NCBI GenBank assembly: GCA_018830405.1
Contig: JAHJSF010000173.1
Coordinates: 1 to 11,036 of the forward strand
Direction of reading: 5' to 3'
Length of the DNA: 11,036 nucleotides
From: Nitrospinota bacterium
GTDB lineage: Bacteria > Nitrospinota > Nitrospinia > UBA9942 > JAHJSF01
The notes under the pieces were generated by a model. It saw only the letters and a list, made by a program, of their open reading frames with translations. It did no database searches and was not told the origin of the DNA. Positions 1 through 5,309 of the stretch are shown piece by piece. A program made the translations under genes and the position numbers. How positions within the stretch are numbered: position 1 is the first letter of the stretch; each line of letters begins with the position of its first letter.

Positions 1-135
1 AGCCGACCGGCCTTTGACACGCCCGGCTTTGTCGTCAATCCTCGCCATAGGCCCTGCTATGGCTGCGGTTGTCTTCGTGCCAGTCGCACCAAATTCTCGG
101 TCTTGATACTGACGCAGAATTATGCAACTAAACAC
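1..135 (-). repeat. Foldback (MITE-like) repeat, copy A, cut by the window edge
   Basis: This is the reverse complement of the element at 1415-1575, with scattered substitutions and no large gap. Its terminal sequence GTGTTTAGTTGCATAA reads inward on the minus strand from 135. The other end, about 26 bp by comparison with copy B, lies outside the window. The central hairpin CCATAG-CAGGGC-CTATGG is intact. The flank beyond 135 is TG (CA on the element strand), so it does not show the TA seen beside copy C. The copy lies 53 bp past the stop of the RNase Z-like gene. I see no transposase, so it would have to be non-autonomous. Confidence 0.85.
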
Positions 136-188
136 TGGTTAGAATATGTTTTTTTAGATTATATAATTATTACCTGTAGGAGAGAAAT

Positions 189-1326: not shown

Positions 1327-1411
1327 TGGTGCGAAAGGGGGGAGTCGAACCCCCACAGCTTGCGCCACTGGCTCCTAAGGCCAGCGCGTCTACCAGTTCC
1401 GCCACTTTCGC
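1327..1411 (-). tRNA. tRNA-Leu, anticodon UAG, CCA encoded
   Basis: Read on the minus strand from 1411. The acceptor strands GCGAAAG and CTTTCGC pair fully. The D arm GCG...GCG contains CTGGTAGAC. The anticodon stem CTGGC/GCCAG encloses loop CTTAGGA, giving anticodon TAG at 1377-1375, which reads CUN leucine codons. A long class II variable arm follows, as expected for leucine, and then a T arm with GGGGG-TTCGACT-CCCCC. The discriminator is A (1330), and CCA is genomically encoded at 1329-1327. All arms fold, so the gene looks functional. Its 5' end is 3 bp from foldback repeat copy B. Confidence 0.97.
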
Positions 1412-1414
1412 ATA

Positions 1415-1575
1415 GTGTTTAGTTGCATAAGTCTGCGTCAATACCAAGACCGAGAATTTGGCGCGGCCGGCGCGAAGACAACCGCAACCATAGCAGGGCC
1501 TATGGCGAGGATTGACGACAAAGCCGAGCGCACCAAAGGCCGGTCGACTACAGCAAGGCTTATGCAATTAAGCAC
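1415..1575 (+). repeat. Foldback (MITE-like) repeat, copy B, complete
   Basis: A 161-bp element with terminal inverted repeats GTGTTTAGTTGCATAAG and GTGCTTAATTGCATAAG (the latter read on the minus strand from 1575), differing at two positions. The two halves continue as an imperfect inverted repeat: GACCG...TTTGG.GCG...CGGC appears in both arms, and the fold ends in the tip CCATAG-CAGGGC-CTATGG. The left flank is TA and the right flank is CA. A second full copy lies at 5115-5309 and an inverted partial copy at 1-135. No coding capacity for mobility is present. The element starts 3 bp from the mature 5' end of tRNA-Leu and so lies in that gene's leader. Confidence 0.9.
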
Positions 1576-1636: not shown

Positions 1637-1706
1637 CTTTTCACTTTTTTACCCGCCATTTCATTGTTTAGGCTTGAAATAGGCTCTTCCAATAGCCTCC
1701 ATCCAA

Positions 1707-1825
1707 CAGAGCGGCAGAAAAAAGTAGGCCGAGGCGCGACGAAGGCGAGGAGTAAGGCGTATTTAGGCATACGCTGTGGCGATGAGGCAAGGAGCAACAA
1801 AGGGATACAAATTTATGCCGCTCTG
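1707..1825. repeat. Third repeat type, bounded by CAGAGCGGCA ends
   Basis: A 119-bp segment with inverted ends CAGAGCGGCAGAAA (1707-1720) and TTTATGCCGCTCTG (1812-1825), matching at 13 of 14 positions. Inside is a small palindrome, GCGTAT (1757-1762) with ATACGC (1769-1774). On either side are imperfect direct repeats of the form GGCG.GA.GA.GC.AGGAG.AA (near 1733-1755 and 1778-1797). Only one copy is in the window, so calling it a dispersed repeat rests on its structure and its place among other repeats. Confidence 0.55.
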
Positions 1826-5000: not shown

Positions 5001-5066
5001 TACGAAGTCGCATTCAAAATGTTTACAACCCCCCCTCCCCCTTTGTTAAGGGGGAATAAGGGGGTT
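5001..5066. repeat. Short hairpin repeat (type 2), copy 2, with shared 18-bp flank
   Basis: The flank at 5001-5018 matches 1223-1240 at 15 of 18 bases. The core at 5026-5066 pairs CAACCCCC(C) with GGGGGTT around TTTGTTAAG. Judged by the asymmetric centre, the core is inverted relative to 1244-1288, while the flank keeps the same side and orientation. It lies upstream of recO and of the possible small ORF. Confidence 0.8.
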
Positions 5067-5114
5067 AGTTGGAAATAAAAACTTCACCTTGATTTTAACA
5101 GATTTTAAGGACTA

Positions 5115-5309
5115 GTGTTTAGTTGCATAAGTCTGCGTCAGTACCAAGACCGAGAATTTGGCGCGGCTGGTGCGAAGACAACCACAGCCGTACAACCCCC
5201 TTATTCCCCCTTAACAAAGGGGGATAGGGGGTTGTATAGCGAGGATTGACAACAAAGCCAGACACGCCAAAGGCCGGTCGACTACAGCAAGATTTATGAA
5301 ATTAAGCAC
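5115..5309 (+). repeat. Foldback (MITE-like) repeat, copy C, with replaced hairpin loop
   Basis: A 195-bp relative of copy B with the same orientation and ends: GTGTTTAGTTGCATAAG at the left, and TTATGAAATTAAGCAC at the right. It is flanked by TA on both sides (5113-5114 and 5310-5311), as expected for insertion with a TA target duplication. The arms align with copy B base for base except at the central hairpin. There the 8-bp loop of copy B is replaced by a 42-bp type 2 hairpin core (5193-5234) between TA dinucleotides. The DUF401 promoter begins 25 bp beyond the right end. Confidence 0.9.
5191..5236. repeat. Type 2 hairpin core embedded in foldback copy C
   Basis: A near-perfect palindrome opening TACAACCCCC and closing GGGGGTTGTA, with C-runs and G-runs separated by TTAACA. 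It matches the cores at 1244-1288 and 5026-5066 but lacks their 18-bp flank. It occupies exactly the position of the loop of the host element's central hairpin. Confidence 0.85.

Follow-up and report, generated by a model that had tools for sequence, protein, structure and literature searches.

Palindromic repeats are common and dispersed in bacterial genomes, and little is known of the way in which long nested ones grow and change. Nested insertions are familiar among bacterial MITEs, which are dispersed, non-coding elements of 120–200 bp, present in many copies and bounded by inverted terminal repeats. The inner element of a nested MITE can lie anywhere and is accompanied by a target duplication, whereas in the repeats described here it lies exactly at the apex of a hairpin, in place of the loop. 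BOX repeats of S. pneumoniae and S. suis are also composite, MITE-like hairpins, and in S. suis one and the same central boxB is enclosed by outer modules of two families, boxA/C and boxE/F (PMC3049150), much as three families of arms share one core here; this likeness is drawn from the architecture of the modules rather than from sequence homology to boxA, boxB or boxC. BOX differs in that boxB varies in tandem number, whereas here a single hairpin occupies the position of the loop and the state of the apex is unlinked to the arms. Short dispersed palindromes in a genome with one Y1 transposase also recall REP and REPIN elements, which RAYT Y1 transposases move (PMC3116915); however, the Y1 gene of our genome (L228) has other ends, and the part of that account drawn on here describes no composite exchange of apices. 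Finally, template switching between the arms of an inverted repeat homogenizes the arms and inverts spacers, so that covariation of arms and inverted apex modules are expected of quasipalindromes (PMC8604942); that process acts at one locus or between sister chromatids, whereas here the apex would come from another copy or another family. Composite repeats resembling MITEs or BOX are already known, and it is the recurrent exchange of the apex that is new. Searches with partial coverage of the literature returned no relevant match to the core sequence and no description of such repeats in Nitrospirota.

The window, by which we mean the whole 11,036-nucleotide stretch analysed, is an entire contig of a 1.42-Mb, 185-contig, 87%-complete genome. 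Two plain copies of a hairpin repeat, type 1, lie in it: copy A (1–136, minus strand), which is truncated by the contig start and has its loop at 50–57, and copy B (1413–1575, plus strand), with the loop GCAGGGCC at 1493–1500. Copy C (5113–5309, plus strand) is chimeric. Read directly, the tip of copies A and B is CCATA-GCAGGGCC-TATGG, and that of copy C is CCG-TA, a 42-bp core CAACCCCCTTATTCCCCCTTAACAAAGGGGGATAGGGGGTTG, and then TA-TAGCGAGG. The left arm of copy C ends at 5190 and the right arm starts at 5237; between them the core, a type 2 hairpin (5193–5234, plus strand), stands between TA at 5191–5192 and TA at 5235–5236, where A and B have their 8-base loop, just as the first-pass annotation described. 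Its further statement that the paired bases around the loop remain needs a small correction: the bases beside the tip, TATGG in the plain copies, read TATAG in copy C. Copies B and C share 93% identity in the left arm. Folded as DNA, copy C forms a single hairpin, and the core makes up its apex (−43.9 kcal/mol, z −8.0); the values for copy B are −32.4 kcal/mol and z −3.6. The window also contains a plain hairpin of another family, type 4 (ACAGAGCGGCAG...TGCCGCTCTG, 1706–1825, plus strand), and two fusions on the plus strand, in which an outer arm of a third family, type 3 (TACGAAGTCGCATTCAAAATG), runs straight into an oppositely oriented core (5001–5066) and a decayed type-3 end (GCGGAGTCACATTCAAA) is joined to a core (1223–1290). 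We think it probable, if far from certain, that copy C is a nested modular palindrome, whose apex module descends from an old solo hairpin and has been exchanged among copies by recombination or template switching.

Chimeric tips, noticed at first in copy C, recur. A whole-genome search recovered both arms of 43 type-1 copies. Of these, 28 are plain and 15 bear the core, so that the architecture of copy C is present at 14 further loci; together with the fold of copy C, this makes it more than a chance arrangement. The plain hairpin is ∼163 bp long, and its tip has the stem CCATAG...CTATGG in all cases. The loop that this stem encloses varies in sequence and is about 4 to 10 bases long (GCAGGGCC, GCAGGGTC, GCTGGGCC, GCATGC, GAAATCTC and others), a small correction to the single plain loop described at first from A and B. 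In none of the 15 chimeric copies do loop and core occur together. The core points one way in 12 of them and is inverted in three (L190, L193 and L194), an arrangement that fits template switching and that arm–arm recombination would yield too. Junctions between arm and core also vary (GCCGTACAACC, GCACAACC, CATACAACC, GTATATAACC), as they would also do after several separate captures. The junction of two copies, ACGCACAACC...GGTTGTATATT in L183 and L185, resembles type-3 tips and is unlike every plain type-1 tip. As separate observations, the right junction of one chimeric copy (L068/L192, C150:19068–19275) carries a tandem duplication of ∼14 bases (GGTTGTATACCGAG), and two type-1 copies, L022 (C13) and L136 (C83), have a right flank in common and differ in left flank and arm bases.

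The same core also tips hairpins of types 3 and 4, both of which have plain copies, so that each of the three families occurs, in the manner of a BOX-like composite, either plain or with the common core. Type 3 (TACGGAGTTGCATTCAAAATGATAACAAGGCGGCAAGGAGGAAGCGAC...GAGGAGCTGACGACGAAGCCAACACAGTTAGCGTTTGAATGCGACTTCGTA) has plain tips of the form GCATAC-N6-GTATGT or near variants (L081–L085, L087), and the core is present in at least 14 further copies of this family; it can also be attached lower on type-3 arms (L009, L060, L144, L168, L172). Plain type-4 tips read GGCGTAT-N4/5-ATACGCC, and four copies of this family bear the core apically (L049, L056, L137, L140). Two of these retain loop bases, GTATTTTTA, next to the core, L140 reading GGCGTATTTTTA-TACAACC...AAGGGGGAA-TACGCTG and L137 beginning GGCGTATTTTTATGCAACC. 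The earlier contention that the loop was replaced is thus partly supported: no chimeric type-1 copy keeps the loop, but in this sister family two copies show the very pattern that the first-pass annotation had named as refuting its reading. Because they keep loop bases beside the core, insertion into the loop with later trimming is possible and replacement in one step is unproven. L140 lacks the end of the core, a loss that deletion between short TA/ATA repeats would produce. The arms of all three families are short, non-coding and dispersed and have inverted terminal repeats, as MITEs do; copies with paired ends number 43 for type 1 and ∼30 for each of types 3 and 4. Type-3 ends are mostly TA...TA, and the flanks of type 1 have no consistent target-site duplication. 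Searches of the 87%-complete genome with the arm DNA, which might have revealed an autonomous element with type-1, type-3 or type-4 ends, gave only short palindromes and truncated copies. A second, different core (AATCCCCCCATCCCCCCTTTAGTAAAGGGGGGNAAGGGGGGATTTG) lies within type-4 arms at three loci (L165, L167 and L176; C123, C130 and C163), where the part of the stem that it replaces is larger than that replaced by the first core.

When copy C was compared with six other genomes of the order, its core region (about bases 80–123) matched in all six, and type-1 arms were found in none of them, nor in named species genomes, viral contigs or plasmids. In the relatives the core usually stands by itself as a hairpin, approximately ACAACCCCCTNANTCCCCCTTAACAAAGGGGGATTNAGGGGGTTGT, with varied flanks; 326 kb of named Nitrospirota loci contained no copy. 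Since all six relatives have the core by itself, with type-1 arms not found there, the core appears, as far as can be seen, to be older than type 1, and the core-bearing tip to be derived. One solo core insertion (L204 in G006 and L215 in G001) is common to two relatives at an apparently orthologous site, and in one of the two a 32-base part of the hairpin is tandemly duplicated. At a separate locus (L149, C39:1540–1920), four core hairpins of ∼34 bp stand in tandem. One core allele, CCCCCTTATTCCCCCTTAACAAAGGGGGATAGGGGG, accounts for 22 of the 40 cores in hairpin families, against one of 46 elsewhere (Fisher, 1e-8), the contexts having been sorted by sequence patterns of our own making that are rough at the margins. 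From this distribution, and from the type-3-like junctions of L183 and L185, we infer that tips probably travel mainly from hairpin to hairpin, between families too, and not mainly from solo cores.

Among the rival explanations, the one with most support is that a mobile core has inserted repeatedly and independently into the apices of hairpins, the loop being lost or trimmed each time. In its strongest form a nuclease or transposase would cut the extruded stem at TA/TA and the core would be joined there, leaving TA on both sides. This would account for the TA found on either side of the core in copy C, as well as in several other copies, for junctions that differ among copies, for the solo cores dispersed through the genome and its relatives, and for the loop bases kept beside the core in L137 and L140. 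However, the intact solo cores of this genome and its relatives, which are few, have varied flanking bases, with no TA on both sides and no visible preference for palindromic flanks, and the allele found at the tips is nearly absent from other cores. The 87%-complete genome yielded no IS630-type DDE_3 transposase, and its only Y1 (IS200-like) transposase gene (L228; C26, 1369–2342) is flanked by GGGGTCAGGTCTTGCAATG inverted repeats, which are unlike the core and unlike the ends of types 1, 3 and 4. We consider repeated insertion unlikely on balance. Two specific routes were tried and rejected, namely a TA-duplicating insertion of the kind made by IS630/Tc1-type MITEs, given the varied flanks of solo copies and the missing DDE_3 match, and mobilization by a RAYT in the manner of REP or REPIN, given the unrelated ends of the sole Y1 gene.

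A further possibility is that the chimeric tip is ancestral in type 1 and that the plain copies arose by loss of the core; the scatter of chimeric copies across the entire arm tree speaks for it. Against this, no remnant of the core was found in the loops of plain type-1 copies, most of which share one common loop, CAGGGC or CAGGGT, and the relatives that have the core alone have no type-1 arms; an ancestral chimera, proof of which the first-pass annotation had named as refuting its reading, is improbable on these grounds.

A tree of the 43 type-1 copies built from the arms only required 13 changes of tip state, as compared with 12.7 when the labels were shuffled. The arms are short (141 columns) and may themselves recombine. 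Because the tree has almost the shape of a star, with a single starred branch, linkage was tested directly. Arm sites are linked to one another inside the left arm and inside the right arm, and left-arm sites are also linked to right-arm sites over the tip (for each of the three, 0 of 500 shuffles), whereas tip type is unlinked to arm sites (p 0.32), its strongest link, with the two sites closest to the tip, being marginal (p 0.06 each). The mean distance between arms is 14.7 among chimeric copies, 15.0 among plain copies and 14.9 from one group to the other, and nearest neighbours have the same tip at chance frequency (p 0.44), chimeric copies often being nearest to plain ones. The outcome in type 3 was the same (13.1, 13.7 and 13.1, respectively; p 0.58); there, the arms of a plain copy (L082) and a chimeric one (L096) differ at one terminal base. 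We conclude that apex state and arms vary independently of each other in type 1 as well as in type 3.

This independence bears on the idea that a single founding chimera multiplied as a subfamily through transposition of the whole hairpin. Such a history would explain why one core allele is present in most chimeric copies and why each copy sits in its own flanks. Nevertheless, a single clade of chimeric type-1 copies is rejected (p-AU 7.4e-5), the unlinked tips and the plain nearest neighbours of many chimeric copies speak against it, and the core tips two other families as well; we regard a founding chimera as very improbable.

The two arms of each type-1 copy, by contrast with the tip, remain matched to one another. 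Paired sites covary, position L15–R58 being A-T or C-G, and in the chimeric copies own arms give 792 paired cells against 782.5 ± 2.4 with shuffled partners (0 of 2000 shuffles), an advantage that the plain copies show too. That own arms pair best argues against chimeric copies being mis-joined halves, and with 15 chimeras in distinct flanks on 13 contigs, an artefact of metagenome assembly joining different repeats through the core is scarcely credible, although the assembly is fragmented into 185 contigs, some of which end inside these repeats.

Exchange of an old apex module among hairpins would accommodate these observations as follows. The ancestor of the module would have been an older hairpin repeat, dispersed solo through the order. 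In the lineage-specific, MITE-like type 1, the apical loop would have been replaced by this hairpin module of ∼45 bp (ACAACCCCC...GGGGGTTGT) in one or a few initial captures, the loop possibly being lost at the first capture through insertion and then trimming, or through replacement. The module would then have passed from copy to copy via short exchanges centred on the apex. These may have been gene conversions, or double template switches during replication, in which a hairpin arm would prime on the arm of another copy and the polymerase would copy the apex of that copy before returning. Exchange across families could make use of short similar stretches near the apex (GAGGA..TGACRACRAAGC, TA/ATA), and events ordinary for inverted repeats would then invert the module and perfect the stem. 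What is observed is that hairpins of three families in this genome have the module at their apex, and that one allele of the module dominates. Replacement by template switching, which the first-pass annotation had put forward for copy C, is consistent with the scattered, arm-unlinked tips and the three inverted cores; no type-1 copy displays the original step of capture. The family to which this bacterium belongs is represented by one genome, and no orthologous locus with both apex states was found, nor was RecO found beside DUF401 in named relatives, where an empty site was sought; no single exchange has been observed directly.

More tentatively, a process that is either dedicated or driven by structure might let extruded hairpins of different families in this lineage swap their apices where the loop meets the stem, through template switching between hairpins or through a cut of the extruded stem at a TA/TA step followed by joining. 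We see this as possible rather than probable; if it were true, hairpin repeats would evolve by shuffling of apices, with stems that evolve independently.

Whichever the route, transfer of tips between families, if true, would be a new evolutionary route for palindromes. Dozens of copies in one genome, whose interchangeable arms carry either a plain or a core-bearing apex, make the question countable, and sister strains could reveal how often, at which junctions and from which donors apices are exchanged. SbcCD cuts hairpins in E. coli, so a lack of it could let long palindromes persist. None of 77 genomes from the phylum gave SbcD at the curated cut-off. Weaker matches to the SbcD family, which may be other nucleases, were present in none of the seven genomes of the order (G000–G006) and in 51 of the other 70; the genomes are incomplete, and by our own arithmetic such a difference would arise by chance with a probability of ∼3e-4. 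A lack of SbcD in the order, if complete genomes bear it out, could help to explain the persistence of its long palindromes.

A DUF401 protein that neighbours the repeats has its closest homologues in Nitrospirota (Thermodesulfovibrionia and magnetotactic relatives), at no more than 57% identity, and served to place the bacterium there. In a TonB-like gene, 45-base tandem repeats (2627–2851) encode a linker rich in Lys and Glu. Finally, with Rfam covariance models at the gathering score, the repeats match no family and a tRNA is the sole match in the window; copy B starts 2 bases from the 5' end of this tRNA-Leu gene (1327–1411, minus strand), so that the region upstream of the gene is the repeat itself.
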